Origin: Sulfitobacter indolifex
Lineage (GTDB): Bacteria; Pseudomonadota; Alphaproteobacteria; Rhodobacterales; Rhodobacteraceae
Length of the DNA stretch: 64,000 nt
Direction of reading: 5' to 3'
Assembly (NCBI RefSeq): GCF_022788655.1
Contig: NZ_CP084954.1
Coordinates: forward strand, 1 to 64,000
Each line of letters begins with the position of its first letter. Position 1 is the stretch's first letter. Both the position numbers and the translations under genes were made by a program. This document shows positions 9,749-45,811 of this stretch, piece by piece. A model generated the notes under the pieces. It was not told where the DNA came from. It worked only from the letters and a program-made list of their open reading frames with translations, and made no database searches.

Positions 9749-9766
9749 TATATGCTTTTTCATATA
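9749..9766. promoter_or_regulatory. Candidate MarR operator upstream of the TRAP operon
   Basis: TATATG-CTTTTT-CATATA is a perfect 6+6 inverted repeat. On the minus strand it reads TATATGAAAAAGCATATA and overlaps a possible -10 (TATACT). The core TATATGAAAAA-N-CATAT is the same as at 10414-10430 in the marR/oxygenase divergent promoter. Confidence 0.7.
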
Positions 9767-9822
9767 TTCACATTTAGATCACGATTGGAACTGTTTTTTA
9801 TGGTGGGAGCAAGGGGGTGAAA

Positions 9823-10317
9823 TCAGCCCTGCGGGTCCGCTGAGCCATCCAACGCCGCAAGCAGGGATTTCAGCGCCGGTTTCAATTGCGCCCCCTCATT
9901 GCCCTTGAGCATTTCCATCAAAGCAGCCTCATGACGCCGCGCTTGGGGCACCAGTTCAGCGGCCAGCGCGCGGCCTGCATCGGTCAGATAGACCCGCACG
10001 CGCCGGCCATCGGCAGGGTCACTGCGGCGGATCAACAGGCCGCGCTCCTCCATCTGAGCGATGATTCGTGTAAGGCGTGATTGCTCGGCCAATGCCTGTC
10101 GGGCCAATTGGGTAATCATCGCGCCATCGGTGTCTGAAAGGCAGGCCAACACCCGCCATTCTGGCACGCGCAGCCCGGCTTTGCGTACCTGCGCGTGGAA
10201 CTGCGCGCTCGCAACATCACTGGCCGCCGCCAAGAGATAGAGCAGGTAGTCAGAAACGAATCCCCCATCCTGCGCTGTTTCTTCGTTGGTGCCTGCGTCG
10301 GTTATCTGTTGCGTCAC
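9823..10317 (-). CDS. MarR family transcriptional regulator of the oxygenase/TRAP genes
   Basis: A winged-helix repressor of about 164 residues. I choose the GTG at 10317 (reading MTQQITDAG) because the open frame further upstream runs through the promoter and operator; AAAGG lies eight bases before it. The wing and recognition helix region (ITQLARQALAEQSRLTRIIAQMEERGLLI, shown by its helix pattern) and the DGRRVRVYLTDAGR wing are typical of MarR proteins, which usually bind aromatic ligands. It is divergent from the oxygenase operon and upstream of the TRAP operon, with the same inverted repeat in both control regions. MarR repressors are known for auxin-degradation (iad) loci, which fits. 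Confidence 0.88.
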   Translation of the reverse strand: MTQQITDAGTNEETAQDGGFVSDYLLYLLAAASDVASAQFHAQVRKAGLRVPEWRVLACLSDTDGAMITQLARQALAEQSRLTRIIAQMEERGLLIRRSDPADGRRVRVYLTDAGRALAAELVPQARRHEAALMEMLKGNEGAQLKPALKSLLAALDGSADPQG

Positions 10318-10402: not shown

Positions 10403-10431
10403 TTGACCGAAACTATATGAAAAATCATATT
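10403..10431 (+). promoter_or_regulatory. Probable promoter of the oxygenase operon
   Basis: TTGACC (10403-10408), 17 bases, CATATT (10426-10431). The -10 and most of the spacer are covered by the inverted repeat, as expected for repression. The first ATG lies 22 bases downstream with GGGAGG in between. Confidence 0.6.
10415..10430. promoter_or_regulatory. Candidate MarR operator in the marR/oxygenase divergent promoter
   Basis: ATATGA-AAAA-TCATAT is a perfect 6+6 inverted repeat with a four-base centre, sharing the core TATATGAAAAA-N-CATAT with the element upstream of the TRAP operon. Confidence 0.75.
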
Positions 10432-10453: not shown

Positions 10454-11404
10454 ATGTCGAAATTCAACGCCATTGTGCGCGAGGTCACAGCGCTGACCGA
10501 TCGCATCAGCGAGTTCCAGATTGGGGCAGCAGACGGCAGCGCGCTGCCGGCGTGGGAGGCGGGTGCGCATGTGCTCTTCGACCTGCCCGACGGCGACACC
10601 CGCGCCTATTCCCTAATCGCTTTCGACCCGATCCCCGAAGCCCCAGAATGCTATCGCATCGCCGTCCAGCGTGAGCCTGAGGGCAAGGGCGGCTCGATCC
10701 ATATGCATGGGCTAAAATCCGGCGCAGAAATCTCCTGCGCCGCCCCAAAGAATGACTTTGCCCTGACGCCGGGCGCGCCTGCGGTGCTGCTGGCGGGGGG
10801 GATTGGCATCACGCCAATGATCTCAATGGCGACGACACTCAAGGCCGCCGGTCAGGCGTTCGCCTTTCACTACTCTGGCCGCAGCGCGCCGCTCATGGCC
10901 TATCGCGATACTCTGCGCGATACCTTCGGCGATGCCTTGCATCTGCATTGCGACGACGACGACAGCGCGCTGAACCTTGACGCGGTGATTGCCTCTGCGG
11001 GCGCCGACGCGCATCTCTATGTCTGTGGCCCCAAGGGGTTGATCGAAGCGGTAAAGGCCAAGGCCGAAGCGGCGGGTATCGCGGCGGACCGCATCCATTT
11101 TGAACTCTTCGACGCACCGCAAGAGCAAGCAGGCGACAGCGCCTTTGAGGTCGAGTTGGCCTCAAGCGGGGAGGTCTTCACCATCCCGCCCGGCCAATCC
11201 ATCATCGACGTGCTGGAAGCGGGCGGCGTCGATGTCATGTACGACTGCCAGCGCGGCGACTGCGGCATCTGCCAATGCGACGTCATCAGCGGCACCCCCG
11301 ATCACCGCGACGTGGTGCTGTCTGAGGCCGAACGCGCCGCAGGCAACGTCATGCAAATCTGTGTCAGCCGCGCCAATTCACCGCGCCTTGTACTCGACAT
11401 CTGA
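10454..11404 (+). CDS. Oxygenase reductase: flavin/NAD(P)H and 2Fe-2S ferredoxin domains (PDR/VanB type)
   Basis: Electron-transfer partner of the Rieske oxygenase encoded next. The 316-residue protein has an N-terminal flavin-binding barrel (with RAYSLI near 50), an NAD-binding part (VLLAGGIGITPMISM, about 110-125) and a C-terminal plant-type 2Fe-2S domain with Cys265, Cys270, Cys273 and Cys303. This order, with the ferredoxin at the C-terminus, is that of phthalate dioxygenase reductase and VanB. The start is the ATG after GGGAGG; the TTG frame-open extension upstream enters the promoter. First gene of an eight-gene operon; 11 bases separate it from the oxygenase alpha gene. Confidence 0.92.
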   Translation: MSKFNAIVREVTALTDRISEFQIGAADGSALPAWEAGAHVLFDLPDGDTRAYSLIAFDPIPEAPECYRIAVQREPEGKGGSIHMHGLKSGAEISCAAPKNDFALTPGAPAVLLAGGIGITPMISMATTLKAAGQAFAFHYSGRSAPLMAYRDTLRDTFGDALHLHCDDDDSALNLDAVIASAGADAHLYVCGPKGLIEAVKAKAEAAGIAADRIHFELFDAPQEQAGDSAFEVELASSGEVFTIPPGQSIIDVLEAGGVDVMYDCQRGDCGICQCDVISGTPDHRDVVLSEAERAAGNVMQICVSRANSPRLVLDI

Positions 11405-11415
11405 GGGAGGAAATC

Positions 11416-12750
11416 ATGGGACGTTACGACAGCCCGGCGGCACTGGCCGCCCTCGTGCAGCCACATCAGGTGCACCGCGATATCTACACCGATCAAGAGG
11501 TGTTCCAGCAGGAGATGAAGCATCTCTTCGCCAATGCTTGGGTCTTTGTCGGCCATGAAAGCCAGACGCCGAACAAGGGGGACTACTTCAGCACCCATAT
11601 CGGCACCCAGCCGGTCATTCAGGTGCGCCATTCGACGGGCGACATCCATGTGCTGCTGAACCGCTGTCCGCATAAGGGCACCAAGATCGTGATTGACCGG
11701 CAGGGCAACACCGGCAAGTTCTTCCGCTGCCCCTATCACGCATGGAGCTTCAAGACCGACGGCTGCCTTTTGGCGATCCCGCTCAAGAAGGGCTACCAAG
11801 ATACCGGGCTAGAAGACACCGACAGCGGCAAGGGCATGCGCAGCGTCGGGGATGTGAAGAACTACCGTGGCTTTATCTTCGCCCGGCTTGCCGAAGAGGG
11901 CATCAGCTTCGAAGAGTTCTTCGGCGAGAGCCTGTCGTCACTCGACAATATGGTGGACCGCTCCCCCGCAGGACGGCTCGAAGTCGTCGGCCCGCCGCTG
12001 CGCTATATGCATCACTGCAACTGGAAGATGTTGGTCGAAAACCAGACCGATACCTGCCACCCGATGGTGGCCCACGAAAGCTCTGCCGGGACGGCGGTGA
12101 AGCTTTACGAAGAGCTCGACTTGCCCGAAGGCGCGCCCAAACCTGCGGCGATGGAGATCATCGCCCCCTTTATGTCCCCTTACGAGTTTTTCGAAGGCAT
12201 GGGCATCCGAACATGGCCCAACGGCCACGGGCACACGGGCGTAAACCATTCAATCCACTCCGATTATTCCGCCATCCCCGGCTATTTCGAAGCGCTCTGC
12301 GAAAGCTATGGAGAGGAAAAAGCCAAGGCGATCTTGGACGAAAACCGCCACAACACGGTCTATTTCCCTAACATCATGATCAAAGGGCCGATCCAGCAAC
12401 TGCGGGTCTTCATCCCCATCGCGGCGGACCGCACGGTGGTGGAAAGCTATATCTACCGCCTTGTGGACGCGCCGGATGAGCTGACCGCCCGCACCGCGAT
12501 GTACAACCGCATGATCAACGCGCCCACCTCCATCGTCGGGCACGATGATCTGGAGATGTACGAGCGTGCCCAAGAAGGGTTGATGGTCAACGGGTTGGAA
12601 TGGGTCAACATCCAGCGGCTGATCGAAGACGACGAAGACTTCGAGACGGAAGCGGTCGAAAACGGCACAACCGAGCGCCAGATGCGCAACCAATTCCATG
12701 CGTGGGTCAAATTTATGACCATGGGCCAAACAGCGGAGGCTGCGGAATGA
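11416..12750 (+). CDS. Rieske ring-hydroxylating oxygenase, alpha subunit (IAA dioxygenase-like)
   Basis: Catalytic subunit of a three-component aromatic-ring oxygenase, 444 residues. The Rieske 2Fe-2S ligands are Cys84, His86, Cys105 and His108 (CPH ... CPYH). The mononuclear iron site is Asp212-x2-His215-x4-His220 in the stretch TDTCHPMVAH; a Gln and Asn precede it as in the family. Preceded by GAGGGAGG. Together with the following beta subunit and preceding reductase it forms a full system. From the downstream CoA ligase, aldolase-like pair and isatin-hydrolase-like cyclase I infer indole-3-acetate as substrate, giving dioxindole-3-acetate. Other carboxylated aromatics such as phthalates or benzoates remain possible. 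Confidence 0.9.
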   Translation: MGRYDSPAALAALVQPHQVHRDIYTDQEVFQQEMKHLFANAWVFVGHESQTPNKGDYFSTHIGTQPVIQVRHSTGDIHVLLNRCPHKGTKIVIDRQGNTGKFFRCPYHAWSFKTDGCLLAIPLKKGYQDTGLEDTDSGKGMRSVGDVKNYRGFIFARLAEEGISFEEFFGESLSSLDNMVDRSPAGRLEVVGPPLRYMHHCNWKMLVENQTDTCHPMVAHESSAGTAVKLYEELDLPEGAPKPAAMEIIAPFMSPYEFFEGMGIRTWPNGHGHTGVNHSIHSDYSAIPGYFEALCESYGEEKAKAILDENRHNTVYFPNIMIKGPIQQLRVFIPIAADRTVVESYIYRLVDAPDELTARTAMYNRMINAPTSIVGHDDLEMYERAQEGLMVNGLEWVNIQRLIEDDEDFETEAVENGTTERQMRNQFHAWVKFMTMGQTAEAAE

Positions 12751-13226
12751 GCGTGACGCGCGAAACCCTGATCGACTTCATCTATGACGAAGTGCGCATG
12801 TTGGACGAGGGGCACTATACCGAATGGCTAAACCTCTGGCTGCCGGATGGGCACTACTGGATGCCGCTGGACTATCAACAGACCGATCCGATCAATCAAA
12901 CCTCGCTGATGTATGAGGATATGTTCATGCTGAAACTACGCGTCGAACGGCTCAACGGCGCGCGGACTTTCAGCCAAAAACCCAAAAGCCGCTGTCATCA
13001 TGTGATCCAGCGTCCTTTCGTCGATGAAATGGACTTGGAGGCGGGGCGTTTCGTCACGACAACCTTCATGCACTACGTCGAAACGCGACTGGATGAGCAG
13101 CAACTGCTCGCTGTCACTGCGCGGCATGAGCTGTCCTTGGTCGACGGCGCACTGCGGATCGCCAACAAACGGGTCGATATCGTCAACTGCGACGCGGCCT
13201 TTCGCAACATTCAGTTGCTGCCATGA
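12747..13226 (+). CDS. Ring-hydroxylating oxygenase, beta subunit
   Basis: The small structural subunit (159 residues) of the Rieske oxygenase, a member of the SnoaL/NTF2-like fold. The true start is the ATG overlapping the alpha-subunit stop (ATGA), giving MSVTRETLIDFIYDE; the longer open frame is an artefact of reading inside the alpha gene. Typical beta-subunit features are the acidic N-terminal helix (DEVRMLDEGHYTEWL), the loop with YWMPLDY and the C-terminal strand ANKRVDIVNCDA. It is coupled to the next gene by another ATGA overlap. Confidence 0.9.
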   Translation: MSVTRETLIDFIYDEVRMLDEGHYTEWLNLWLPDGHYWMPLDYQQTDPINQTSLMYEDMFMLKLRVERLNGARTFSQKPKSRCHHVIQRPFVDEMDLEAGRFVTTTFMHYVETRLDEQQLLAVTARHELSLVDGALRIANKRVDIVNCDAAFRNIQLLP

Positions 13227-14848
13227 TCGCGCCAGAGATCGAAACGGTTTGCGCAGCCTTTGAAAACACCGCAAAGCGGTATCCCGAACGGGGCTTTTTG
13301 AATGTCCTGCCCGAAACGGCAGCGCTCTACGGGATCGCGGCGGGGGAGGTGACCTACGCCGAAGCCGCGCGCGAGGTCGCGGCTCTGCGGGAGAAAATCG
13401 CGGCGGCGGGCTACCTACCCGGCCAGCGGGTCATGCTGCTGATGGAGAACCGCCCGGCATTTTTCCTCTGGTGGCTGGCGTTGAACGGCTTGGGCCTGTC
13501 GGTGGTGCCGGTGAACCCCGATCTACGCGCGGCGGAGCTCAGCTATATGATCGACCACGCCGAGCCGGTCTTGGCCGTGGCGATCCCGGCACGTGGCGAT
13601 GATCTGCGCGCGGCAGCGCGGCAAGCGGGGCGCGAAATGCCAGTGATTGCACCGGGCGATCCTCTCCCTGCGCCGGTCTCAAGCACGGCCATCGCGGCTA
13701 GGGAGGGCGGCGCGGAGGATGCGGAAGCGGCACTCCTCTACACCTCCGGCACCACGGGTCAGCCCAAAGGCTGCATCCTGACCAACACCTATTTCCTCGA
13801 CGCCGGACGCTGGTACGCAGACACAGGCGGGCTCTGCGCCCTGTCGCAGGACGGCGAGCGCATGATCACGCCGTTGCCGATCTTCCACATGAACGCGATG
13901 GCCTATTCCTTTATGGCGATGATCGCCGTGGGCGGTTGTCTGACCGCACTTGACCGGTTCCATCCGCGCAGCTGGTGGGCGTCGGTCCGGGCGTCGGGGG
14001 CGACCTGCCTGCACTACCTCGGCGTGATGCCATCTATGTTGATGGGGGCCGAAGAAAGCGACGAGGACCGCGATCACGCCGTGCGCTTCGGCTTCGGCGC
14101 GGGGGTGGACCCGAAACTCCACGCCGGTTTTGAGGCGCGTTTCGGCTTCCCGTTGGTGGAGGCTTGGGCCATGACCGAGACGGGCGCAGGCGCCGTGATT
14201 TGCGCCAACCGCGCACCACGCCGGGTGGGCGAAAGCTGTCTCGGTGCGGTTGAGCAAGGGCTGGACGTACGGCTGGTCGATGACGCCGGACAAGAGGCGG
14301 AACAGGGCGAACTGCTGGTGCGCCGTGCGGGCACCGACCCCCGGCGGGGATTTTTCGCGGGCTATTTCAAGAATGCCCAAGCCACGGATGAGGCATGGCA
14401 GGGCGGCTGGTTCCACACCGGTGACATCGTGCGCCGCGCGCCTGACGGCGCTATGTTCTTTGTCGACCGTAAGAAAAACGTGATCCGTCGCTCGGGCGAA
14501 AACATCGCGGCGGTGGAGGTGGAATCGACCCTGATGCGCCACCCCGCTGTGGCCAGCGCCGCCGTCGCCGCCGTGCCGGACGCGGTGCGCGGGGATGAGG
14601 TCTTTGCCTGTATCGTCGCGAAAGACGCGGGCGCTGATCCTGCCGACTTGGCGCAGGAAATCACCCGATGGTGCCTCACTCAACTTGCCTACTACAAAGC
14701 CCCCGGCTTCATCGCTTTCGTCGACACACTGCCACTGACCGCGACGCAGAAACTTCAACGCGGAGTGCTGAAAACGCTGGCGGCTGACCTGCGCGACGAT
14801 CCCACAACCCATGATATGCGCGGGCTGAAGAAACGGACGGCTGCATGA
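13223..14848 (+). CDS. AMP-dependent acyl-CoA synthetase (aryl/indolyl-acetate CoA ligase candidate)
   Basis: An adenylate-forming CoA ligase of 541 residues. It has the P-loop YTSGTTGQPKG (173-183), the A5 region WAMTETGAG, the A7/A8 stretch HTGDIVRRAPDGAMFFVDRKKNVIRRSGENI and the A10 lysine in TATQKLQRG. It would activate a carboxylic acid as its CoA thioester in the cytoplasm. In the proposed pathway it makes dioxindole-3-acetyl-CoA from the oxygenase product, which sets up the following carbon-carbon cleavage. The start and stop both overlap neighbours by four bases. Substrate is inferred from context; the family call is secure. Confidence 0.9.
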   Translation: MIAPEIETVCAAFENTAKRYPERGFLNVLPETAALYGIAAGEVTYAEAAREVAALREKIAAAGYLPGQRVMLLMENRPAFFLWWLALNGLGLSVVPVNPDLRAAELSYMIDHAEPVLAVAIPARGDDLRAAARQAGREMPVIAPGDPLPAPVSSTAIAAREGGAEDAEAALLYTSGTTGQPKGCILTNTYFLDAGRWYADTGGLCALSQDGERMITPLPIFHMNAMAYSFMAMIAVGGCLTALDRFHPRSWWASVRASGATCLHYLGVMPSMLMGAEESDEDRDHAVRFGFGAGVDPKLHAGFEARFGFPLVEAWAMTETGAGAVICANRAPRRVGESCLGAVEQGLDVRLVDDAGQEAEQGELLVRRAGTDPRRGFFAGYFKNAQATDEAWQGGWFHTGDIVRRAPDGAMFFVDRKKNVIRRSGENIAAVEVESTLMRHPAVASAAVAAVPDAVRGDEVFACIVAKDAGADPADLAQEITRWCLTQLAYYKAPGFIAFVDTLPLTATQKLQRGVLKTLAADLRDDPTTHDMRGLKKRTAA

Positions 14849-16014
14849 AACGGCAGAGTTATGAAGGCGTGGTCATCGCCGCGCCAACCTCGGTGCCCTA
14901 TCAGCGCTATAGCAATGCGACCGCGCATTGGTGGATCGCCCGCGCCCTGCGCGACATGCTGGGCCAAGCGGGGATCGCCCCGGCGGCGTTGGACGGTTTT
15001 TCGGTTTCCAGCTTTTCGCTCGCGCCCGACACGCCAGTGGGGCTGACCCAGCATCTAGGCCTCAGCCCGCGCTGGCTCGATACCGTGCCCACAGGCGGGG
15101 CCAGCGGGGTGATCGCCCTGCGCCGCGCCGCGCGGGCGGTGCAAGCGGGGGACGTGGATGTGGTCGCCTGTGTGGCGGGCGACGCGAACCGGATCGACAG
15201 TTTCCGCACACTCCTCAGCGGCTTTTCGCGCTTTTCGATGGATGCGACCTTCCCCTACGGCTTCGGCGGCCCCAACGCGAGTTTCGCCCTGCTGATGGAC
15301 CGCTATATGCAGGAATACGGCGCCACCCGAGAGGATTTTGGCCAGATCGCCGTGGCCCAACGTGGCAACGCGCTGCGCTATCCCAAGGCGCTGATGAAGA
15401 CCCCACTCACCCTCGATCAATACCTCAATGCGCGGATGATCTCGGACCCCATTGCTCTTTTCGATTGTGTCATGCCCTGCGCCGGGGCCGAGGCGTTTTT
15501 GGTCATGCGCGAAGACGAGGCCGCGCGCCGCAATTTGCCCTTCGCCCGGATCAGCGGCACAATCGAGCGGCACAACGCCTACCCCGAAGACCCAATGCAA
15601 CTGCGCGGCGGCTGGGGCGTGGATATTGATGAGCTTTATGACATGGCGGGCCATGGGCCTGAGGGCGTCGACCTGTTGCAAACCTACGACGACTATCCGG
15701 TGATCTCGATGATGCAGTTCGAAGACCTCGGCTTATGCGCCAAGGGGGAGGGGGCCGCGTTCGTCCGTCAGCGTGATCTGACAATCTCGGGCGACTTCCC
15801 GCATAACACTTCTGGCGGGCAATTATCGGTCGGCCAAGCCGGGGCCGCGGGTGGTTATTTGGGGCTAGTCGAGGCGATACGGCAGGTAACCGGACAGGCC
15901 GATGGCACGCAGGTGGCAAACGCACAGCGGGCGCTGGTCTCGGGCTTTGGCATGATCAACTATGACCGGGGCGTTTGTTCGGCAGCGGCGATCATCGAAG
16001 GGGGCGGGGTATGA
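14845..16014 (+). CDS. Thiolase-superfamily protein lacking catalytic Cys/His, Ltp2-like aldolase candidate
   Basis: A 389-residue member of the SCP2-type thiolase (lipid-transfer) family. The nucleophilic Cys of true thiolases falls in TGGASG (about 84-88), where a Gly stands in its place, and the usual GHPxGATG histidine motif is changed to SVGQAGAAGG. Such proteins are not thiolases; the characterised Ltp2 works with a DUF35 protein as a retro-aldolase that cleaves a tertiary beta-hydroxyacyl-CoA. The next gene here encodes a DUF35 domain, giving the same pair. In the proposed route it would split dioxindole-3-acetyl-CoA into isatin and acetyl-CoA. Family secure, activity inferred. Confidence 0.82.
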   Translation: MKRQSYEGVVIAAPTSVPYQRYSNATAHWWIARALRDMLGQAGIAPAALDGFSVSSFSLAPDTPVGLTQHLGLSPRWLDTVPTGGASGVIALRRAARAVQAGDVDVVACVAGDANRIDSFRTLLSGFSRFSMDATFPYGFGGPNASFALLMDRYMQEYGATREDFGQIAVAQRGNALRYPKALMKTPLTLDQYLNARMISDPIALFDCVMPCAGAEAFLVMREDEAARRNLPFARISGTIERHNAYPEDPMQLRGGWGVDIDELYDMAGHGPEGVDLLQTYDDYPVISMMQFEDLGLCAKGEGAAFVRQRDLTISGDFPHNTSGGQLSVGQAGAAGGYLGLVEAIRQVTGQADGTQVANAQRALVSGFGMINYDRGVCSAAAIIEGGGV

Positions 16015-17258
16015 CCGACCCATTGACGCCGCCGCAAAAGAAGAACCCGCAAAAGCGCAGCACAGTGCCAACCCTACCGCCTGCACAACGCTCACGCGCG
16101 GCACTCGGGCTGGCGATTGCCGCGGGGCGGGGGCAGTTTGCGCTGCAACATTGTGCTGACTGCGGCGCGGTTCAATATCCACCGCGTGATGCCTGCTGCA
16201 AATGCCTGTCTGTGGCGCTTGATTGGCGCGAGACTAATCCGACTGGCGAGGTGTTGGCCGAAACGACGATCCGGGTCTCACCCGACCCCTACTTCCGCGA
16301 GCGTCTGCCGTGGCGGATCGGCACGGTGCAACTCGCCGTCGGGCCGGTGGCGGTATGCAATCTACACGGCGAAGTCGGGCGTGGCGATAACGTCCGTCTG
16401 GCGCTTAAGTTGGACCGGGCCGGGCAGGGGGTCATGGTAGCCCTGCCGCGAGAGGGAAGCGAATTTATGCAAGACGACTCAATACTGCGCGCGATGTCGA
16501 GCGACCCGAAACACCGTCGGGTGCTGATCACCGATGCCCGCTCCCCCATGGCCCTGCCGCTGGCCCAAGCGCTTCTGAAAGCAGGTGCGGCGCAGGTCTT
16601 TCTTGGTGAGCCAGAGCACTGGCGGCGGTGGGAAGGACGTGCGGCCCTTGAGGGGATCAAGAACGTCAGCCTCATGCCGCTTGACGTGACCGACACCGCT
16701 TCCGTCTCCCGCCTCGCGGCTGAGATCGCGGGGAAGGTTGATATCCTGATAAACACCGCGCAGTTCATCCGCCCCGGCGGGGTGCTGGGTGGCGATACGA
16801 TCTTTGCCCGCGACGGGATGGAGACCAATGTGCTGGGTCTCATGCGGCTGGCGCAGAGCTTTGGCCCGGCGATGGCGTCGCGCACGGCGGATGGGGTAAA
16901 TTCAGCGGTGGCGTGGGTAAATCTGCTCTCGGTCGGGGCGCTGGCCCCGGCGGCGGGGTTCGGCGGGTTTGATGCCTCGCAAGCGGCGGCGCGGTCGCTC
17001 AGCCAGACTCTTCGCGCGGAGTTTTCCAGTTCCGGATTGCGGGTGATGAATGTCTATACCGGGCCTGTGGATGATGAATGGCACCAGCCTTTGCCGCCGC
17101 CCAAAGTCCCCCCCCCCGCGCTGGCGCGGACAGTGGTGAGTGGCCTGGTCGACGGGCTGGAAGAGGTTGCCTGCGGTGATGTGGCTAAGGATGCATTGGC
17201 CCGTTGGCTGGACGATCCGGCGCTGATGGAACGCGAGATGCGGGGGAACGGAGCATGA
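16011..17258 (+). CDS. DUF35 OB-fold/Zn-ribbon protein fused to a degenerate SDR domain
   Basis: A 415-residue two-domain protein. Residues about 40-155 form a DUF35 unit with a zinc ribbon (Cys48, Cys51, Cys62, Cys65) and an OB fold ending in RGDNV. DUF35 proteins pair with Cys-lacking thiolases as activity partners. Residues about 168-400 are a short-chain dehydrogenase fold, but the glycine motif has become TDARSPMA (about 174-181) and the YxxxK pair is Phe320 and Gln324 (FDASQ), leaving only a Ser near 307. It is likely a scaffold or CoA/nucleotide-binding pseudo-enzyme. The start overlaps the thiolase stop (ATGA), supporting a stoichiometric complex. Confidence 0.82.
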   Translation: MTDPLTPPQKKNPQKRSTVPTLPPAQRSRAALGLAIAAGRGQFALQHCADCGAVQYPPRDACCKCLSVALDWRETNPTGEVLAETTIRVSPDPYFRERLPWRIGTVQLAVGPVAVCNLHGEVGRGDNVRLALKLDRAGQGVMVALPREGSEFMQDDSILRAMSSDPKHRRVLITDARSPMALPLAQALLKAGAAQVFLGEPEHWRRWEGRAALEGIKNVSLMPLDVTDTASVSRLAAEIAGKVDILINTAQFIRPGGVLGGDTIFARDGMETNVLGLMRLAQSFGPAMASRTADGVNSAVAWVNLLSVGALAPAAGFGGFDASQAAARSLSQTLRAEFSSSGLRVMNVYTGPVDDEWHQPLPPPKVPPPALARTVVSGLVDGLEEVACGDVAKDALARWLDDPALMEREMRGNGA

Positions 17259-18037
17259 GCGATGCAATCACAGCACTGGCCGATGCGCTGGCAAGCGGCG
17301 CGGCACAGGTCGTCGATCTGACGCACCGGCTTGATCCCGATTTCCCAGTCATTGTCTTACCGCCAGAGTTCGGCCAATGCGCGCGGTTCCGGATGGAGGA
17401 AGTCTCGGCCTATGATCATCGCGGCCCGGCGTGGAAGTGGCATAACCTCACGCTGAACGAACACACCGGCACCCATTTCGACGCGCCGATCCACTGGGTC
17501 TCCGGCAAAGACGTGGCGAATGGGGCGGTCGATGAAATCCCGCCCGAGGCCTTCATCGGCCCGGTGGTTGTGATCGACTGCTCCGAGGGGGCAGGGCAGG
17601 ACGATGACTTTGAACTGACGCCCGAAATCATCCACGATTGGGAAGCCAAACACGGCACGATCCCGGCAGACGTCTGGGTGCTGATGCGCACCGACTGGTC
17701 GAAACGCAGCGGCGCGGACTACCTCAACATGCGCGAGGACGGGGCCCATTCGCCCGGTCCCACACCCGCCGCAATCTCCCTTCTGTTGGAGCGCGGCATT
17801 CGCGGCTTTGGCACCGAAACCGTCGGCACCGATGCGGGGCAGGGGATGCACTACGATCCACCGTTTCCTGCGCATTACTTGCTGCATGGGGCAGGGAAAT
17901 ATGGCCTGCAATGTCTGTGCAACCTCGACCAACTGCCGCCCACGGGCGCCATGTTAATTGCACCGCCGCTCAAGATCAAAGGCGGAACCGGCAGCCCATT
18001 ACGGGTGCTGGCGCTGATACCGGGAGAGAGACCATGA
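17255..18037 (+). CDS. Cyclase-family metal hydrolase, isatin hydrolase-like
   Basis: A 260-residue member of the cyclase/kynurenine formamidase family. The metal-binding motif HTGTHFDAPIH supplies His70, His74, Asp76 and His80. The family includes isatin hydrolase, which opens the lactam of isatin to isatinate using Mn; the layout here (VLPPEFGQ, PAWKWHN, HSPGPTP, NTDAGQ-like GTDAGQ, NLDQLPP, PLKIKGGTGSPLRVLAL) looks like that subgroup as I remember it. Kynurenine formamidase is the main alternative. It overlaps its neighbours by four bases on both sides. A second, diverged cyclase of the same type lies at 40836. Confidence 0.82.
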   Translation: MSDAITALADALASGAAQVVDLTHRLDPDFPVIVLPPEFGQCARFRMEEVSAYDHRGPAWKWHNLTLNEHTGTHFDAPIHWVSGKDVANGAVDEIPPEAFIGPVVVIDCSEGAGQDDDFELTPEIIHDWEAKHGTIPADVWVLMRTDWSKRSGADYLNMREDGAHSPGPTPAAISLLLERGIRGFGTETVGTDAGQGMHYDPPFPAHYLLHGAGKYGLQCLCNLDQLPPTGAMLIAPPLKIKGGTGSPLRVLALIPGERP

Positions 18038-18759
18038 GCGAGTACACCGCCGTCATCACCGGGGGCAGCAAGGGGATCGGTGCCGATTTGGCGCAGCGTC
18101 TGCTGGAGCGCGGCTACCGCGTCGTCTCTATCGCCCGAGGCAAGCCGGAATGGGACGCGGAAGCCGTTGAGCATATCGAAGCCGATCTGCTCGATCCCGC
18201 CTCCGTCTCTGCCGTGGCAGCCGATATCGCGGCGCGCTATGACGTGACCCATCTGGTGCATAACGCCGGTTTGATCTGGCCCAATTTGATCGAAGAGGCC
18301 AAGCCCGAAGACATCACAGGTCTGGCGCAACTGCACCTCGGCGCGGCCCTGACGCTTCTGCAAGCGTTCCTTCCGGCAATGAAAAACCGAGGCTTCGGTC
18401 GGGTGATGTTCAACGCCTCCCGCGCCGCCTTGGGCGCGTCGACGCGCACGGCCTATTCGGCGTCCAAAGCGGGGATGATTGGCATGGCGCGCACATGGGC
18501 GCTGGAGCTTGCACCGCATGGGATCACCGTCAACGTCGTGGCCCCCGGTCCGGTGCAGACCGACAATTTTTGGGGCATCATCCCCAAAGAAAGCGAACGC
18601 GAGGCGGAATTGGCCAAACGGATCCCGGTGGGGCGCTTGGGGCAGGTCGAGGACGTAACCAACGCCTTTCTGTTCTTCTGCGATCCAGCCAACAGTTTCG
18701 TCACCGGCCAGACGCTCTTTGTTTGCGGCGGGTCGAGCATCGGGACGCTGACGCTCTGA
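18034..18759 (+). CDS. Short-chain dehydrogenase/reductase (classical SDR)
   Basis: An intact SDR of 241 residues: cofactor motif TGGSKGIG (9-16), NAG at 77-79, and the catalytic Ser129, Tyr141 and Lys145 (YSASK). FabG-like length. It is the last gene of the oxygenase operon, starting at the ATGA overlap with the cyclase after GGGAGAG. In the proposed scheme it could oxidise dioxindole to isatin or act on a side product. It stands in contrast to the catalytically dead SDR domain two genes upstream. The operon ends convergent with the next gene, with only nine bases between stops. Confidence 0.88.
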   Translation: MSEYTAVITGGSKGIGADLAQRLLERGYRVVSIARGKPEWDAEAVEHIEADLLDPASVSAVAADIAARYDVTHLVHNAGLIWPNLIEEAKPEDITGLAQLHLGAALTLLQAFLPAMKNRGFGRVMFNASRAALGASTRTAYSASKAGMIGMARTWALELAPHGITVNVVAPGPVQTDNFWGIIPKESEREAELAKRIPVGRLGQVEDVTNAFLFFCDPANSFVTGQTLFVCGGSSIGTLTL

Positions 18760-36365: not shown

Positions 36366-36406
36366 ATCGAACTCTCCTGTCGTTTCATTTGGTCTGGTTC
36401 AGCCTG

Positions 36407-39566: not shown

Positions 39567-39616
39567 GCTACTGTAGTGATGTCGTAATTTAGAAAGCATG
39601 CCTCGTGGAAAGATTT

Positions 39617-39628: not shown

Positions 39629-39697
39629 TAAAATACAATCATTAAAATGCAGGCAAGCCCGGCAACAACGCAGCCGGTTTCTATGATGGAGAGATAA

Positions 39698-40660
39698 ATG
39701 AACCCTTCGATTTTTTCCGGCTGCATCCCGGCCCTGATGACCCCCTGCACTGAAGACCGCAAACCCGACTTCGATGCACTGGTGCGCATGGGCAAAAAGC
39801 TGATCGCCGATGGTATGAGCGCGGTCGTATACTGCGGCTCAATGGGTGATTGGCCGCTGCTGACCGATGCTGAGCGGATGGAAGGCGTTGAACGCTTGGT
39901 CAACGCGGGCGTTCCGGTCGTTGTTGGTACGGGTGCTGTGAACACCAAGCTGGCCGCCGAGCACGCAGCCCATGCACAGAAAGTTGGTGCAAAAGGTTTG
40001 ATGTTGATCCCGCGCATCCTGTCGCGTGGTACTTCGGTCGCTGCCCAAAAGGATCATTTCAAAGCTGTCCTTTCCGCCGCGCCGGATCTTCCGGCCGTGA
40101 TCTACAACAGCCCCTATTATGGTTTCGCCACCCGCGCTGATCTCTTCTTTGCGCTGCGGGCCGAGCATTCGAACCTCGTCGGTTTCAAGGAGTTCGGCGG
40201 CGCAGACGACCTGCGCTATGCGGCTGAAAACATCACCAGCCGCGATGATGACGTGACGCTGATGATTGGCGTCGACACCACTGTTTTCCATGGTTTCGTC
40301 AACTGCGGTGCCACGGGCGCCATCACTGGCATCGGCAACGTGTTGCCGCGCGAAGTGTTGCATCTGGTGGCCCTTAGCCAAGCCGCAGCGGCGGGCGATG
40401 CCGAAGCGCGCCAGCGGGCGCAGGAACTGGATGCGGCGCTTGGTGTTCTGTCCTCCTTTGATGAGGGTCCCGATCTCGTGCTTTATTATAAGCATCTGAT
40501 GGTGCTCGAAGGCCATGCAGAATATGCGCTGCATTTTAACGAGACCGACGCGCTGAGCGACAGCCAACGCGGCTATGCCGAGGCGCAGTATAAGCTGTTC
40601 CGCACTTGGTATGCCGATTGGAGCAAGCAAGGCGGCGCGGTCGCCAAATACGCGGCCTAA
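39698..40660 (+). CDS. Dihydrodipicolinate synthase (DapA) family aldolase/dehydratase
   Basis: A 320-residue class I aldolase of the DapA/N-acetylneuraminate lyase family. Schiff-base Lys164 is in GFKEFGG, the catalytic Tyr region is YNSPYYG (136-142), and the family loop GSMGDW (47-52) replaces the usual GTTGE. Not the housekeeping DapA: it has an extended C-terminus and sits under a catabolic GntR regulator. Candidate reactions are pyruvate-forming cleavage or keto-acid dehydration, as in hydroxyproline or sugar-acid catabolism. GGAGAG precedes the ATG. A clear terminator follows. Confidence 0.88.
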   Translation: MNPSIFSGCIPALMTPCTEDRKPDFDALVRMGKKLIADGMSAVVYCGSMGDWPLLTDAERMEGVERLVNAGVPVVVGTGAVNTKLAAEHAAHAQKVGAKGLMLIPRILSRGTSVAAQKDHFKAVLSAAPDLPAVIYNSPYYGFATRADLFFALRAEHSNLVGFKEFGGADDLRYAAENITSRDDDVTLMIGVDTTVFHGFVNCGATGAITGIGNVLPREVLHLVALSQAAAAGDAEARQRAQELDAALGVLSSFDEGPDLVLYYKHLMVLEGHAEYALHFNETDALSDSQRGYAEAQYKLFRTWYADWSKQGGAVAKYAA

Positions 40661-40835: not shown

Positions 40836-41627
40836 ATGAGTGCAACAGATTTAATGCGAGATTTCGGGGCGATGCTCGCCTCTGGCGGGGTCGAAGTGGT
40901 GGACTGTTCTGGTGTTTTGGGGCCGGATACGCCGATCCTGCAACTGCCAGCCGATTTTGCCAAGCCGACGCCGAAAGTCGAGATCCACAAGATCAGCGAA
41001 TATGATGAAGACGGCCCGTTCTTTGCGTGGAACTGGATGGTCTTGGGCGAGCATTCCGGCACGCATTTCGACGCGCCGCACCATTGGATCACCGGCAAAG
41101 ATTACGAAGACGGGTTCACCGATACGCTTGACGTGCAACGCCTCGTCGCGCCGGTGAATGTGATCGACTGTTCGCAACAGTCCCAAGAAGACCCTGACTT
41201 TTTGCTCGACGCCAAGGGCATCAAGGAATGGGAGGCCGAGTATGGCGAGATTGGCGAGGGCGAATGGGTCGTCATGCGCACCGATTGGGACAGCCATGTG
41301 AACGACGAAGCGCGGTTCCTCAACGCGGATGAGACCGGCCCCCACAGCCCCGGACCGACCCCGGATGCGATTGAATATCTGATGAGCAAAAAGATTGTTG
41401 GTTGGGGCACCCAATGCATCGGCACCGACGCGGGCCAAGCGGGCGGGATGGAGCCGCCGTACCCGGCGCATAACCTGCTGCACAAGAACAACTGTTTTGG
41501 TCTGGCAAGCCTTGCCAACCTCGACAAACTGCCGCCCAAAGGCGCGATCCTGATTGCGGCACCGTTGAAGATCAAAAACGGCACCGGCAGCCCCATTCGG
41601 GCGCTGGCGCTGGTGCCGAAGGGCTGA
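40836..41627 (+). CDS. Cyclase-family metal hydrolase, isatin hydrolase-like, second copy
   Basis: A 263-residue homologue of the cyclase at 17255, with the metal motif HSGTHFDAPHH (His73, His77, Asp79, His83) and the same order of blocks (VEVVDCSGVLGPDTPILQLP, HSPGPTPDAIEYL, GTDAGQ, NLDKLPPKGAILIAAPLKIKNGTGSP). The two copies are clearly diverged. Isatin hydrolases open isatin to isatinate; kynurenine formamidase is the alternative. It is the first gene of a four-gene cluster with MarR and an IorAB-type oxidoreductase that could consume isatinate. GGGGAG lies upstream; I use the ATG at 40836. Confidence 0.82.
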   Translation: MSATDLMRDFGAMLASGGVEVVDCSGVLGPDTPILQLPADFAKPTPKVEIHKISEYDEDGPFFAWNWMVLGEHSGTHFDAPHHWITGKDYEDGFTDTLDVQRLVAPVNVIDCSQQSQEDPDFLLDAKGIKEWEAEYGEIGEGEWVVMRTDWDSHVNDEARFLNADETGPHSPGPTPDAIEYLMSKKIVGWGTQCIGTDAGQAGGMEPPYPAHNLLHKNNCFGLASLANLDKLPPKGAILIAAPLKIKNGTGSPIRALALVPKG

Positions 41628-41630
41628 TCG

Positions 41631-42110
41631 GTGACGGATACGCCACTCACCAAGGCGGAGAATGCGCCGCTCGATCAGATGGGGCTCGATAACTTCGCGC
41701 CCTATCTGATGAACCGGATCATGGGGCGGTATAATGCCGCCCTGTCAGCCGAGATGGCGGCGCTTGGCTTGACCACGCCGCAGATGCGCTCCTTGGCGGT
41801 GCTTTCGGTCACGGATGGGATCTTGATCCGTGAATTGGCCGTCTATGCGGTGGTTCAGCAATCTACGCTGAGCCGCGCGCTGGACGCGCTGGTGCGCGAC
41901 GGTTTGGTGCGGCGTGAGACTGACGCGGCCGACAGCCGCGCAACCCGCGTCTACCTGACTGAAAAGGGCGGCGATGCCTATGCCCGGCTCTGGCCGCATA
42001 TGGCCGAAGCCTATGGCGCGATGTTCAAGGGCATCGACGCCGCCGAGAAAGAGGCCTTTGTGGCCACGCTGCGCACCATGCTGCGTAATATCCGAAAACA
42101 CGATTTTTAA
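41631..42110 (+). CDS. MarR family transcriptional regulator, second copy
   Basis: A 159-residue winged-helix regulator starting at GTG, three bases after the cyclase stop. The DNA-binding part is ILIRELAVYAVVQQSTLSRALDALVRDGLV in pattern, the wing is DSRATRVYLTEKG. It is only distantly like the MarR at 9823. Being inside the cyclase-ior cluster it probably represses that cluster; whether it or the first MarR reads the repeat at 40748 cannot be settled here. Ligands of MarR proteins in auxin loci include indole-3-acetate and its breakdown products. Confidence 0.88.
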   Translation: MTDTPLTKAENAPLDQMGLDNFAPYLMNRIMGRYNAALSAEMAALGLTTPQMRSLAVLSVTDGILIRELAVYAVVQQSTLSRALDALVRDGLVRRETDAADSRATRVYLTEKGGDAYARLWPHMAEAYGAMFKGIDAAEKEAFVATLRTMLRNIRKHDF

Positions 42111-42119
42111 GAGGGTCCT

Positions 42120-44270
42120 ATGGCCGAGCGTTCGTTCAAGGCAGAGGTGGAACACCTGCGCAAAGGAGACGGTGACGTCTTCACAGGTGAGGGTATCCTC
42201 GCGATCACCAAAGCTCTTCTGGAAAACGGGGTCGGCTATGTAGGCGGCTATCAAGGTGCGCCGATTTCGCATCTGATGGATGTGCTGGCGGATGCCGAAG
42301 AGCTCATGGGGGAGTTGGGCGTGCGGTTCGAGGCGAACGCTTCTGAGGCTGCCGCCGCGGCAATGCTGGCCGCTTCGGTGCACTACCCCATTCGCGGTGC
42401 GGTGACCTTCAAAGGCCCGGTGGGGGTTAACGTGGCTTCAGATGCGCTGGCGAACCTTAGCTCCTCAGGCGTGACCGGCGGCGCGCTGGTGATCGTGGGC
42501 GAAGACTACGGCGAAGGCTCGTCGATCATGCAAGAACGCTCTCACGGCTTCGCAATGAAATCGCAGTTTTGGATGCTTGACCCGCGCCCGAACCTGCCTT
42601 GCATCACGAAGGCGGTGAAGGACGGGTTTGAGCTCAGCGAGGCCAGCAACACACCTGTCATGCTCATGGTCCGTATCCGGTCGTGCCATGTCACGGGCAG
42701 TTTTGAGACCTGCGACAACCAGCGCCCGCCGTTGACCGTCGCCGAGGCCGCCGCCAATCCGCGCTCGGATTTTAACCGCGTGGTGCTGCCGCCGATGTCC
42801 TATCTGCATGAGAAGGACAAGATCGAGAACCGCTGGCCTGCGGCTGAGAAGTTCATTCGTGAGAACAAGTTGAATGAGGTCTTTGGCCCCAAAGAAGCCC
42901 CCTTGGGTATTGTGGTGCAGGGTGGGATGTACAACTCGGTGATCCGCGCGCTGCAACGTCTCGGCCTAGCCGATATCCACGGTGAAACCGAGGTGCCGCT
43001 TTATGTGCTGAACGTCACCTATCCACTCCTGCGCGATGAGTTTGACGAATTCTGCGCAGGCAAGGATCATGTTCTGGTGGTCGAAGAGGGCCAGCCCGAT
43101 CACATCGAACAGCAGCTCGGCTCCTACCTCTACAAGCTCGAACGCAAGGTGAAGCTGCACGGCAAAGACGTGCTGCCGATGGCTGGCGAATACACCGGGC
43201 AGGTATTGCTCGATGGGGTCACGGATTTCCTCAAGGTCGCTGCACCAGACATGTTGCCCGGCAAGGTGCGCGCCCCCAATGCCGAAGCGCCCGCGATCCC
43301 CGATCTGTCCGACACGGTGCCAATCCGCCCGCCCGGTTTCTGCACCGGCTGCCCTGAGCGCCCGATCTTTGCCGCGATGAAACTGACCGAGCAGGAGTTG
43401 GGCAAACACCAGATTACCGGAGATATTGGCTGCCACCTGTTCGGCGTTCTGCCCCCCTTTGAGATCGGCGGCTCGACCATGGGCTACGGGCTTGGACCGG
43501 CCTCTAACGCCGCCTTTGACGGCGGCGGCGACAAACGGGTGATCTCGATCATGGGCGACGGCGGGTTCTGGCACAACGGGTTATCGACCTCGATCGGGAA
43601 CATGGTTTTTAACAAATCCGACAGTGTGGCGGTGATCGTTGACAACTACTATTCTGCCGCCACCGGGGGGCAGGATGTGATGTCGTCCCGCGCGCATAAT
43701 GACACAAAATCGACGAATAACCCGATCTCTAAGGCGCTCAAGGGCGTGGGTGTGGAATGGGTGCGCCAGATCGACCGGACCTATGATGTCGGCAAGCTGC
43801 GTGAGGTGCTGCGCGAGGCGCTGACCACCGATTACAAAGGGCCGAAGGTGATCGTCGCCTCCTCGGAATGTATGCTGAACAAGCAGCGCCGCGAGAAGCC
43901 GCTGCGCAACAAAGCGATCAAGGAAGGCCGCCGCATGGAGGTGCCGCGCTTTGGCGTCGATGCGGATGTTTGCACCGGGGATCACGCCTGTATCCGGCTC
44001 TCGGGCTGCCCGTCACTGTCGCTGAAACGGCTCGACGATCCGCTGCGCGATGATCCGGTGGCGCATATTGATCAAACCTGTGTCGGCTGCGGCAACTGCG
44101 GCGAAGTGGCCGATACGGCGGTGCTCTGCCCGTCCTTCTATCAAGCCGATGTGGTGCATAACCCGACCCGTTTTGAGCGGTGGCGTGCCGATAAGACCAG
44201 TCAGATCATCAACTGGCTGCAAAGGCGGCGCGACGCGAAGCGGCTGCGCAGCGAAGGAGTGACGACGTGA
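42120..44270 (+). CDS. iorA: Indolepyruvate ferredoxin oxidoreductase-type alpha subunit (TPP and 4Fe-4S)
   Basis: A 716-residue 2-oxoacid:acceptor oxidoreductase subunit. The N-terminal pyrimidine-binding domain has GYQGAPISHL and FEANASEAAAAAM; the TPP domain has GDIGCHLFG and the metal motif GDGGFWHNGL with VDNYYSAATGGQ; the C-terminus carries a ferredoxin-like domain with two Cys clusters (CTGDHACIRLSGC and CVGCGNCGEVADTAVLC). This enzyme type oxidatively decarboxylates aryl 2-oxoacids to acyl-CoA. Here the linked isatin hydrolase would supply isatinate, an aryl 2-oxoacid, so anthraniloyl-CoA is a possible product. Indolepyruvate is the other candidate substrate. Confidence 0.9.
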   Translation: MAERSFKAEVEHLRKGDGDVFTGEGILAITKALLENGVGYVGGYQGAPISHLMDVLADAEELMGELGVRFEANASEAAAAAMLAASVHYPIRGAVTFKGPVGVNVASDALANLSSSGVTGGALVIVGEDYGEGSSIMQERSHGFAMKSQFWMLDPRPNLPCITKAVKDGFELSEASNTPVMLMVRIRSCHVTGSFETCDNQRPPLTVAEAAANPRSDFNRVVLPPMSYLHEKDKIENRWPAAEKFIRENKLNEVFGPKEAPLGIVVQGGMYNSVIRALQRLGLADIHGETEVPLYVLNVTYPLLRDEFDEFCAGKDHVLVVEEGQPDHIEQQLGSYLYKLERKVKLHGKDVLPMAGEYTGQVLLDGVTDFLKVAAPDMLPGKVRAPNAEAPAIPDLSDTVPIRPPGFCTGCPERPIFAAMKLTEQELGKHQITGDIGCHLFGVLPPFEIGGSTMGYGLGPASNAAFDGGGDKRVISIMGDGGFWHNGLSTSIGNMVFNKSDSVAVIVDNYYSAATGGQDVMSSRAHNDTKSTNNPISKALKGVGVEWVRQIDRTYDVGKLREVLREALTTDYKGPKVIVASSECMLNKQRREKPLRNKAIKEGRRMEVPRFGVDADVCTGDHACIRLSGCPSLSLKRLDDPLRDDPVAHIDQTCVGCGNCGEVADTAVLCPSFYQADVVHNPTRFERWRADKTSQIINWLQRRRDAKRLRSEGVTT

Positions 44271-45811
44271 ATATGATCCTGCCGCAAAAGACACCCGATG
44301 CACGTGTCGGTGAAATCATCAAGCTCGCGGTCATGGCCGTGGGCGGGCAGGGCGGTGGCGTCTTGACGGGCTGGATCGAATCCATGGCGCGGGCCGAGGG
44401 CTATGTCTGTCAGGCGACCTCGGTCGCCGGTGTGGCGCAGCGGACGGGGGCTACGATCTATTACGTCGAAATGGCCCGCAAAAGCGCGTTAGAGCCGGTT
44501 TTTGCCCTCGCCCCTGCGGCGGGCGATGTCGACGTGTTGATCGCGGCTGAGATGATGGAAGTCGGTCGCGCGGTGATGCGCGGTTTCGTGACGCCAGACC
44601 GCACCACGCTGATCGGCTCGACCCACCGCGCCCTTGCGGTGAGCGAGAAGATGGCCCCCGGAGACGGCATTGCCGACGCGGATGAAGTCCGCGCCGCTGC
44701 AGAAATTGCTGCGCAAAAACTGGTGTTGGAGGATATGGAAGGGCTGGCCGTCGGCGCGGGCTCTGTCATTTCCGCCTCGCTTTTCGGCGCATTGGCTGGC
44801 TCTGGCGCGCTGCCGTTCCGTCGCGAAGCTTATGAAGATGCGATCCGCGCGGGCGGCAAAGGGGTGGAGCCTTCGCTGCGTGCCTTTGCTGTGGGATATG
44901 ATGCGGCGCAGGGCCATCTGCCTACCGCCTCCCCCGTCACAACGGACGAGTTCGAAACCCCCTTCCGCCTTACCGGCCCCCAAGCGTTGCAAAGCCACTG
45001 GGACGGGCTTGTCACCCGCGCCGATGCGCTGCCGGAAGCGGTGCATGATCTGGCGTTTGCGGGCCTGTCTAAGGTGGTAAATTTCCAAGACTGCGCCTAT
45101 GGCACGCTCTACCTCAACCGGCTCGATACCGTGCTGGCCCGTGACAGTGCCGCCTGCGATTGGCGGCTGTCGGCGGAGGCTGCGAAATACATCGCCAATG
45201 CCATGGCCTATGATGACATCATTCGTGTCGCCGACCTGAAAACCCGCGCGCCGCGCTTTACCCATATCCGGCAGGAAATGCGGGCGGGCGACGCAAACCT
45301 GATGCAGTTGACCGAATACTTTCACCCCCGCGCCGAGGAAATCGCAGGGCTAATGCCCGCGCGTCTTGGGGCCAAGGTGGAGGCAAGCGACACATGGATG
45401 GCCCGGCTGAACCGGTGGTTTGATAAGGGCCGCCGCCTGCGCACGGACCGGCTGCCCGCATTCTTGATGCTGCATGTGCTGGGGGGGCTCAAGGGCTACC
45501 GCTTGAAAACCCACCGCCACGCGATTGAGATGGCGCATCTAGATGATTGGCTTGCGCGCAGTTTGGCTGAAGTAGATGCCGACTATGATGTCGCGGTGGA
45601 GCTGGTGAAATGTCGTCGGCTTATCAAAGGCTATTCCGACACCCACGCGCGGGGATTGGGTAAGTTCGACAAGGTGATGGATGCCGCTGATCTGCTGCGG
45701 GGGCGCGATGATGCGGCGCAATGGATTGCGCGCCTGCGGGAGGCGGCCTTGCAAGATGCCGAAGGCAAAGCGCTTGATGGGGCCATCGCGACAGTGCGTT
45801 CTTTCGTTTAG
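44267..45811 (+). CDS. iorB: Indolepyruvate oxidoreductase-type beta (gamma-domain) subunit
   Basis: A 514-residue partner of IorA. The first about 190 residues are the catalytic gamma-type domain (LAVMAVGGQGGGVLTGWIES, then VAQRTGATIYYVEM), followed by a long C-terminal region of unknown role found in the aerobic proteobacterial long form. It starts at GTG overlapping the iorA stop (GTGA) after GAAGGAGT. The long form is a flavin or quinone-linked variant in some proteobacteria, so ferredoxin as acceptor is not assured. Together the two genes make one enzyme. Confidence 0.87.
   Translation: MNMILPQKTPDARVGEIIKLAVMAVGGQGGGVLTGWIESMARAEGYVCQATSVAGVAQRTGATIYYVEMARKSALEPVFALAPAAGDVDVLIAAEMMEVGRAVMRGFVTPDRTTLIGSTHRALAVSEKMAPGDGIADADEVRAAAEIAAQKLVLEDMEGLAVGAGSVISASLFGALAGSGALPFRREAYEDAIRAGGKGVEPSLRAFAVGYDAAQGHLPTASPVTTDEFETPFRLTGPQALQSHWDGLVTRADALPEAVHDLAFAGLSKVVNFQDCAYGTLYLNRLDTVLARDSAACDWRLSAEAAKYIANAMAYDDIIRVADLKTRAPRFTHIRQEMRAGDANLMQLTEYFHPRAEEIAGLMPARLGAKVEASDTWMARLNRWFDKGRRLRTDRLPAFLMLHVLGGLKGYRLKTHRHAIEMAHLDDWLARSLAEVDADYDVAVELVKCRRLIKGYSDTHARGLGKFDKVMDAADLLRGRDDAAQWIARLREAALQDAEGKALDGAIATVRSFV

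Follow-up and report, generated by a model that had tools for sequence, protein, structure and literature searches.

How is the side chain of the auxin indole-3-acetate (IAA) split off in bacteria, and by which reaction does the resulting isatin carbon leave the pathway? The question is raised by a stretch of 64,000 nucleotides from Sulfitobacter indolifex (assembly GCF_022788655.1, contig NZ_CP084954.1, positions 1 to 64,000; the whole stretch is called the window in the following), which carries two gene clusters, cluster 1 at 10454-18759 and cluster 2 at 40836-45811 (Table 1). A first-pass annotation, made from the letters of the DNA, had chained both clusters into a pathway from IAA through isatin to anthraniloyl-coenzyme A (anthraniloyl-CoA), and every gene that it had named has been found as an open reading frame at its place. 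With considerable confidence we read the window as a plasmid-borne iad auxin-degradation system of three modules, which would oxidise auxin, cleave its side chain and convert isatin to a CoA thioester.

The iad locus and the oxidation of auxin

Judged by its proteins, cluster 1 belongs to the known iad loci for auxin degradation. Its genes follow the order iadC-D-E-F-G-H-I-J with iadR divergent, and from iadD to iadJ every start overlaps the preceding stop. V. paradoxus IadD (9o71) lies far ahead of naphthalene, biphenyl and phenylpropionate enzymes as the match of the Rieske alpha subunit in the PDB, while isatin hydrolases A and B are the closest matches of the two cyclases; phthalate and kynurenine substrates, which the first-pass annotation had named as findings that would refute its reading, are rejected by these best matches. 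A search with IadD has kept 80 loci (stretches of up to 21 kb each), 60 of which carry the full set from iadC to iadJ, 55 of these with iadR too, and 14 of the 80 have no iadG in the stretch. As 60 of 80 loci carry all of C to J, a chance arrangement is excluded. The same eight-gene run has been found on the megaplasmid of Ruegeria pomeroyi DSS-3, which belongs to the tested strains with these loci that are reported to degrade IAA (Conway et al., 2022, PMC9613470). The iad systems of Variovorax paradoxus CL14, Achromobacter and Bradyrhizobium have the gene content, the C-to-J order and the IAA-sensing type of IadR in common with cluster 1, and isatin and anthranilate have been reported as their intermediates (PMC9613470, PMC12633357). 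Unlike in those systems, the locus lies here on a RepABC plasmid, iadA and iadB, which are also markers of the iad locus, stand on the same plasmid more than 20 kb away from iadC-J, next to genes for isatin hydrolase B and another MarR, and the predicted regulon holds a TRAP (tripartite ATP-independent periplasmic) transporter in place of an ABC (ATP-binding cassette) importer. The two clusters of the first-pass annotation are confirmed and its pathway is supported, but locus and pathway were already known, as iad; all genes of its cluster 1 inventory are present, while the degenerate short-chain dehydrogenase/reductase (SDR) domain fused to the DUF35 partner, the flanking MarR gene (about 9823-10317) and a palindrome had been overlooked. 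Iad-like operons have been counted in 2 of 304 marine metagenome-assembled genomes (2024 survey, PMC11630574). No report of a Sulfitobacter iad locus has been found among the open-licence papers matched, and a Sulfitobacter mediterraneus paper mentions, in its available parts, only the Variovorax ABC protein IadK2 (PMC12114110).

In Variovorax, mutants and isotopes have shown that IadCDE oxidises IAA once and that the SDR IadJ completes dioxindole-3-acetate, and C10H9NO4 accumulates upon deletion of iadF, G, H or I (2025 preprint, PMC12633357). This role of IadJ requires the SDR motifs, and it fits that the glycine motif TGxxxGIG and YxxxK are kept in 72 of 72 relatives of at least 50% identity. 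In the first module, IadCDE and IadJ would thus convert IAA to dioxindole-3-acetate as shown by others in Variovorax, a step in which we have very high confidence. The first-pass version of this oxidation needs amending, as two enzymes are reported to be necessary, i.e., Rieske monooxygenation followed by IadJ (PMC12633357).

Proposed side-chain removal by IadG and IadH

In the second module, IadF would make the CoA ester of dioxindole-3-acetate. This tertiary beta-hydroxyacyl-CoA would then undergo a retro-aldol cleavage to isatin and acetyl-CoA, carried out by IadG and the DUF35 domain of IadH. From sequences and structure models we consider this step, already proposed in the first-pass annotation, highly probable, although IadG has been labelled a ketothiolase and IadH an alcohol dehydrogenase on the basis of annotation (PMC12633357). 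A profile of seven IadG proteins has been aligned to solved structures, and where the thiolases 7yvy and 7pxp show the nucleophilic Cys and the HDAF and GHP motifs, IadG shows Gly, YDDY and GQA. Gly85 stands at the Cys of 7yvy, Tyr281 at the HDAF His and Gln331 at the GHP His (7yvy, 7pxp), i.e., none of the three catalytic residues is found at its aligned position. Gly occupies position 85 in 75 of 76 relatives, the remaining row (L015) being a gene split between frames that has been kept in the counts of 76. YDDY is invariant in all of them and in 7/7 further genomes (83/83), and a Cys two residues past position 85 (GGACG) occurs in 4/76. A thiolase function of IadG is rejected, as the catalytic residues are missing at the aligned positions, which bears out the early description of a thiolase-like protein devoid of them.

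Among the solved structures, the IadG profile has matched CtSal (9myr) first, the putative thiolase 4u4e second and TcLtp2 (6ok1) third. The fold search with an AlphaFold model of IadG (single chain; predicted local distance difference test, pLDDT, 76.7; predicted template modelling score 0.84) has likewise placed 9myr and 6ok1 on top, both of which were solved together with a DUF35 partner. In the YDCY motif of CtSal, Tyr302 and Cys304 are essential and have been proposed as base and acid (PMC12329534). IadG shows the thiolase fold with the Tyr of a YDxx motif, and in the adjacent IadH Pfam recognises zf-ChsH2 and OB_ChsH2_C, which points to a DUF35 partner. As for the second catalytic residue, neither Cys304 of Sal nor Tyr344 of Ltp2 is present in IadG; Asp283 occupies the place of the Cys, and Gln331 lies near that of the Tyr. 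Tyr281 would act as base with Asp283 as candidate acid, and the active site appears to be a variant, so that we propose that IadG works like a Sal/Ltp2 retro-aldolase, short of full membership.

The four zinc Cys of IadH are found in 75/76 relatives, and its sequence matches ChsH2 (6ok1_B) at 4e-6. In the SDR domain, the glycine motif has an Asp directly behind its first Thr in 75/76, and the Tyr-Lys dyad is intact in none of the 76 relatives and none of the 7 further genomes (0/83), by which IadH is rejected as a dehydrogenase despite its SDR fold; the domain is presumably non-catalytic. All 50 fold matches listed for the IadH model (single chain, pLDDT 82.1) are SDR structures, and the assignment of the DUF35 part rests on Pfam and sequence. 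The steroid aldolases Sal-Shy and Ltp2-ChsH2, with Shy and ChsH2 as DUF35 proteins, have the thiolase fold without thiolase residues, the YDxx Tyr and the DUF35 partner in common with IadG-IadH, and cleave beta-hydroxyacyl-CoA, an activity that is predicted for IadG-IadH (PMC12329534). By residues, fold and DUF35 partner, IadG-IadH resembles the Ltp2-ChsH2 retro-aldolase. It differs from the steroid systems by YDDY instead of YDCY or YDHF, by a degenerate SDR, in place of a hydratase domain, as fusion partner of DUF35, and by the predicted substrate, an oxindole instead of a steroid.

Several points weigh against this assignment. In the IadG model, the pLDDT falls below 50 in loops 116-142 and 324-332, and IadH of a non-alphaproteobacterial genome (G379) keeps the Lys, with Phe in place of Tyr. 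IadG and IadH sequences of V. paradoxus have not been found, the plasmid matches in Variovorax covering the SDR part only, with 28-33% identity. In addition, dioxindole would have to arise by reduction of isatin, given the C8H7NO2 in an iadI mutant. Among open-licence papers, judged mostly by title or the start of the abstract, none has been recognised as proposing a retro-aldol step in IAA breakdown.

Partial loci match the proposed pathway cut at dioxindole-3-acetate. Four stretches (L049, L051, L054, L076) carry iadC-D-E and iadJ with no iadF-G-H-I. Six others (L014-L019; Neorhizobium, Azospirillum, Novosphingobium, Agrobacterium pusense, Paroceanicella and Sagittula plasmids) carry iadG-H with F- or I-like genes, but their stretches contain no Rieske oxygenase. 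In both groups the absent genes could be located at another place of the genome, and the latter group may draw on dioxindole-3-acetate that plants or other microbes have formed. An aspartate/glutamate racemase-like gene is seen in L017 and L019.

A proposed route from isatin to anthraniloyl-CoA

Both cyclases of the window have the motif HxG[T/A]HxDxPxH together with GLQC or GLAS. Their nearest solved relatives are the isatin hydrolases A and B of Labrenzia (Roseibium) aggregata, with which they have the metal-binding motif in common; a Michaelis constant of 16 uM for isatin has been determined for hydrolase A, and the available parts of the paper do not describe a role of either enzyme in iad or anthraniloyl-CoA pathways (PMC6117287). 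The iad locus of Roseibium aggregatum IAM 12614 (L094) has an iadI that contains two stretches of the crystallised isatin hydrolase A exactly, and the assayed enzyme is now placed inside an iad operon. That IadI opens isatin to isatinate, as assayed by others for the orthologous enzyme, would be the most secure step of the route and is in our judgement virtually certain.

The third module would consist of the second isatin hydrolase, the second MarR and IadAB. Indolepyruvate and phenylglyoxylate oxidoreductases are thiamine pyrophosphate (TPP) and iron-sulphur enzymes that convert aryl 2-oxoacids to acyl-CoA. IadAB differs from these in its predicted substrate, isatinate, and in the DUF6537 domain of IadB; it would decarboxylate isatinate oxidatively to 2-aminobenzoyl-CoA (anthraniloyl-CoA) with reduction of ferredoxin. 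The product would be consumed by a chromosomal operon with a protein of model NF006101 (NCBI name salicylyl-CoA 5-hydroxylase/oxidoreductase), which we take to be a putative 2-aminobenzoyl-CoA monooxygenase/reductase. In the host chromosome, its gene is accompanied by those for a benzoate-type CoA ligase, an acyl-CoA dehydrogenase, an enoyl-CoA hydratase, a tryptophan 2,3-dioxygenase and a kynureninase, with the ligase and the tryptophan 2,3-dioxygenase scoring just under their cut-offs; this make-up fits an anthraniloyl-CoA pathway, the later steps of which are probably located on the chromosome. Matches on contigs C2 and C3 of the host assembly are paired and score identically, which suggests that the assembly holds duplicated or redundant contigs.

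The placement of IadAB is backed by co-occurrence and gene order. In a set of 199 host-family genomes, which in nearly all cases represent different genera, IadG occurs in 19 and an IadA orthologue (above 1000 bits, paralogues lying at about 800) in 38, i.e., in 19/19 genomes with IadG and 19/180 without (p 2e-16). The monooxygenase/reductase (at least 66% identity) occurs in 68/199, comprising 16/19 genomes with IadG, 17/19 with IadA only and 35/161 with neither. It is thus found in 33/38 genomes with IadA versus 35/161 without (p 9e-14), and the association persists among the IadG-less genomes (17/19 versus 35/161, p 8e-9). Of 33 genomes with both, 7 have IadA at most 30 kb from the monooxygenase/reductase; for IadG the number is 3/16. 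Neighbourhoods have been fetched for 20 of the 38 IadA genomes, namely 16 of the 19 without IadG and 4 of the 19 others, picked for visible linkage. Isatin hydrolase B accompanies IadA and IadB in 15 of these 20 (MarR recognised in 12 of the 15) and in 15/16 of the IadG-less ones, whereas L113 and L117 have IadA-IadB with isatin hydrolase B not in the stretch. In L112 IadA adjoins the monooxygenase/reductase, in L115 and L116 iadC-J leads straight into the monooxygenase/reductase operon, and in L041 this operon, iadR, iadC-J, iadB and iadA are all contained in one 21-kb stretch. From these patterns it is probable that IadAB is placed between isatinate and anthraniloyl-CoA, as had been proposed at first pass for an IorAB-type enzyme.

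The most serious alternative, which we nevertheless regard as unlikely, is that IadAB acts on another 2-oxoacid, e.g., indolepyruvate, or converts isatinate to 2-aminobenzaldehyde only, outside an anthraniloyl-CoA route. The best TIGRFAM model of IadA is indeed indolepyruvate:ferredoxin oxidoreductase, with a score below the cut-off (287 against 651 bits), which at the same time counts against our main reading. The formula C7H7NO fits, as we read it, 2-aminobenzaldehyde. This formula has been reported in Variovorax, though in strains without iadAB (PMC12633357). Against another substrate speak the adjoining isatin hydrolase, the association of IadA with IadG and the monooxygenase/reductase, and the retained TPP and CxxC motifs; moreover, of six genomes with only a 53-55% identical IadA paralogue, just one has the monooxygenase/reductase. 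Other points count against the anthraniloyl-CoA route as such. Both orthologue levels have been chosen after seeing the gaps, 3 of the 19 IadG genomes have no monooxygenase/reductase at the strict level, and the CoA ligase of the host operon means that free anthranilate could also feed it. Since anthranilate is still formed by a Variovorax strain that received iadC-K2 but no iadAB (PMC12633357), IadAB is not needed for this product. No open-licence paper, judged mostly by title or abstract start, has been recognised as proposing the conversion of isatinate to anthraniloyl-CoA.

Less plausible still is that cluster 2 forms an independent module for external isatin, unrelated to auxin. The clusters are usually apart, because just 8 of the 80 iad stretches from named genomes contain IadA or IadB, and a single one contains isatin hydrolase B; in addition, cluster 2 has an upstream element of its own, and IadA occurs in 19 of 180 IadG-less genomes. 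The presence of IadA in every IadG genome argues against independence, as do the gene orders of L128 (R, then A-B-C-D-E-F-G-H-I-J in one run) and of L028 and L033 (A-B-F-G-H-I-C-D-E-J). Least probable is the published reading in which IadG as ketothiolase and IadH as alcohol dehydrogenase remove the side chain with IadF reductively to dioxindole and IadI is a broad amidase: it has annotations in its favour and the accumulation of C8H7NO2, the formula of dioxindole, in the iadI mutant, from which the authors infer reductive removal (PMC12633357), but the thiolase residues of IadG and the dyad of IadH are missing across 83 relatives (the V. paradoxus proteins not among them), an IadI orthologue is an assayed isatin hydrolase, and the chemistry calls for no net reduction.

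Regulation, uptake and the plasmid setting

IadR would sense IAA and control cluster 1 together with the TRAP importer. The R. pomeroyi MarR protein of structure 3CDH, the best match of IadR, binds IAA with a dissociation constant of 0.24 uM (PMC9613470). The 18-bp palindrome TATATGAANNWTCATATT has four matches in the window, i.e., two places read on both strands, at 0.13 expected in shuffles, and a related palindrome (at most 5 substitutions) is found in 32 of 51 iadR-iadC regions examined. It is present in 69 of 84 iad loci versus 2.4 in a rough control with shuffled two-base blocks. An orthologue of the TRAP binding protein (at least 63% identity) occurs in 35/84 loci, and in 31 of these 35 one palindrome lies upstream of its gene and one at iadR/iadC; the former is present even at about 9 kb from iadR. 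A point to the contrary is that the palindrome has not been seen in R. pomeroyi (L009) nor in L128-L132, five regions from other families. Upstream of cluster 2, a different element, TATTTGCA, is shared by 9/16 upstream regions. The TRAP transporter is thus probably the auxin importer of an IadR regulon, its substrate being predicted from this context; no report of TRAP auxin uptake has been found among the open-licence papers matched.

The window opens with repA-repB-repC (names after the annotated relative plasmid L010). Eleven Sulfitobacter plasmids of about 190-420 kb encode an IadH 90-92% identical to that of the window, and in one of them, L010, the gene order agrees with that of the window from repA past iad up to the second cyclase, minus the block 24317-28708. 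This block, which by sequence comparison is an insertion or deletion between close relatives, holds here a HAD-type phosphatase and an ABC transporter (phosphonate type by eye). Between the clusters (31135-40660) lie a gamma-glutamyltransferase, a dipeptide-type ABC transporter, a GntR regulator and a DHDPS-family gene; a link of the latter two to the clusters has been looked for in the 84 iad loci, of which one has them. Next to the TRAP genes stands a metallopeptidase gene (5655-6707; M42-like by eye, M20/M25/M40 in L010), which is found in 3/84 loci, all Sulfitobacter; that it releases auxin from conjugates is speculation.

Table 1. Features of the iad system and its surroundings in the window
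Feature	Position	Strand	Evidence or remark
TRAP transporter	6792..9683	-	large permease 6792-8105, small permease about 8102-8605, substrate-binding protein 8664-9683
putative IadR operator before TRAP operon	9749..9766		2 mismatches to TATATGAANNWTCATATT on minus strand
iadR, MarR repressor	9823..10317	-	best PDB match 3cdh; start from L010 RefSeq annotation
putative IadR operator between iadR and iadC	10414..10431		0 mismatches to TATATGAANNWTCATATT
iadC, reductase of Rieske oxygenase	10454..11404	+	Fer2 and NAD_binding_1 domains
iadD, Rieske oxygenase alpha	11416..12750	+	best PDB match 9o71 (V. paradoxus IadD), E 2e-168
iadE, Rieske oxygenase beta	12747..13226	+	Ring_hydroxyl_B
iadF, AMP-forming CoA ligase (putatively dioxindole-3-acetate to CoA ester)	13223..14848	+	AMP-binding domains
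iadG, thiolase-fold, probable retro-aldolase with YDDY active site	14845..16014	+	profile, fold, residues
iadH, zinc ribbon and OB fold (DUF35/ChsH2) fused to degenerate SDR	16011..17258	+	Pfam, residue counts, model
iadI, isatin hydrolase A type	17255..18037	+	best PDB match 5nnb, E 2e-145; motif HTGTHFDAPIH
iadJ, SDR dehydrogenase, active site intact	18034..18759	+	motifs kept in relatives
isatin hydrolase B type	40836..41627	+	best PDB match 4j0n, E 8e-156
second MarR (IadR2-like by place)	41631..42110	+	best PDB match 3cjn
iadA, TPP-dependent 2-oxoacid:ferredoxin oxidoreductase alpha	42120..44270	+	TIGR03336 287 bits; GDG...N at 479, CxxC motifs
iadB, oxidoreductase beta	44267..45811	+	NF006179 653 bits (cut-off 348); POR and DUF6537

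While the pathway itself had been described before, three assignments are new within the literature searched, namely a predicted retro-aldolase, a predicted isatinate oxidoreductase and a predicted TRAP importer, all of them well suggested. The middle and last iad steps are still assigned from annotation in the newest work consulted (PMC12633357), and each has been given a specific predicted reaction here. Taken jointly, the chances are somewhat better than even that the thiolase-fold/DUF35 retro-aldolases have in IadG-IadH their first branch outside the steroids, with a Tyr-Asp active site and a dead SDR domain as scaffold, that isatin hydrolase B, MarR, IadA and IadB together form a portable module from isatin to anthraniloyl-CoA whose 2-oxoacid oxidoreductase has a new activity, and that auxin enters marine alphaproteobacteria through a TRAP transporter under the control of IadR. 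The proposal offers a possible way for isatin carbon into the 2-aminobenzoyl-CoA pathway, and an auxin importer with its operator is predicted for marine bacteria, of which many are associated with algae.

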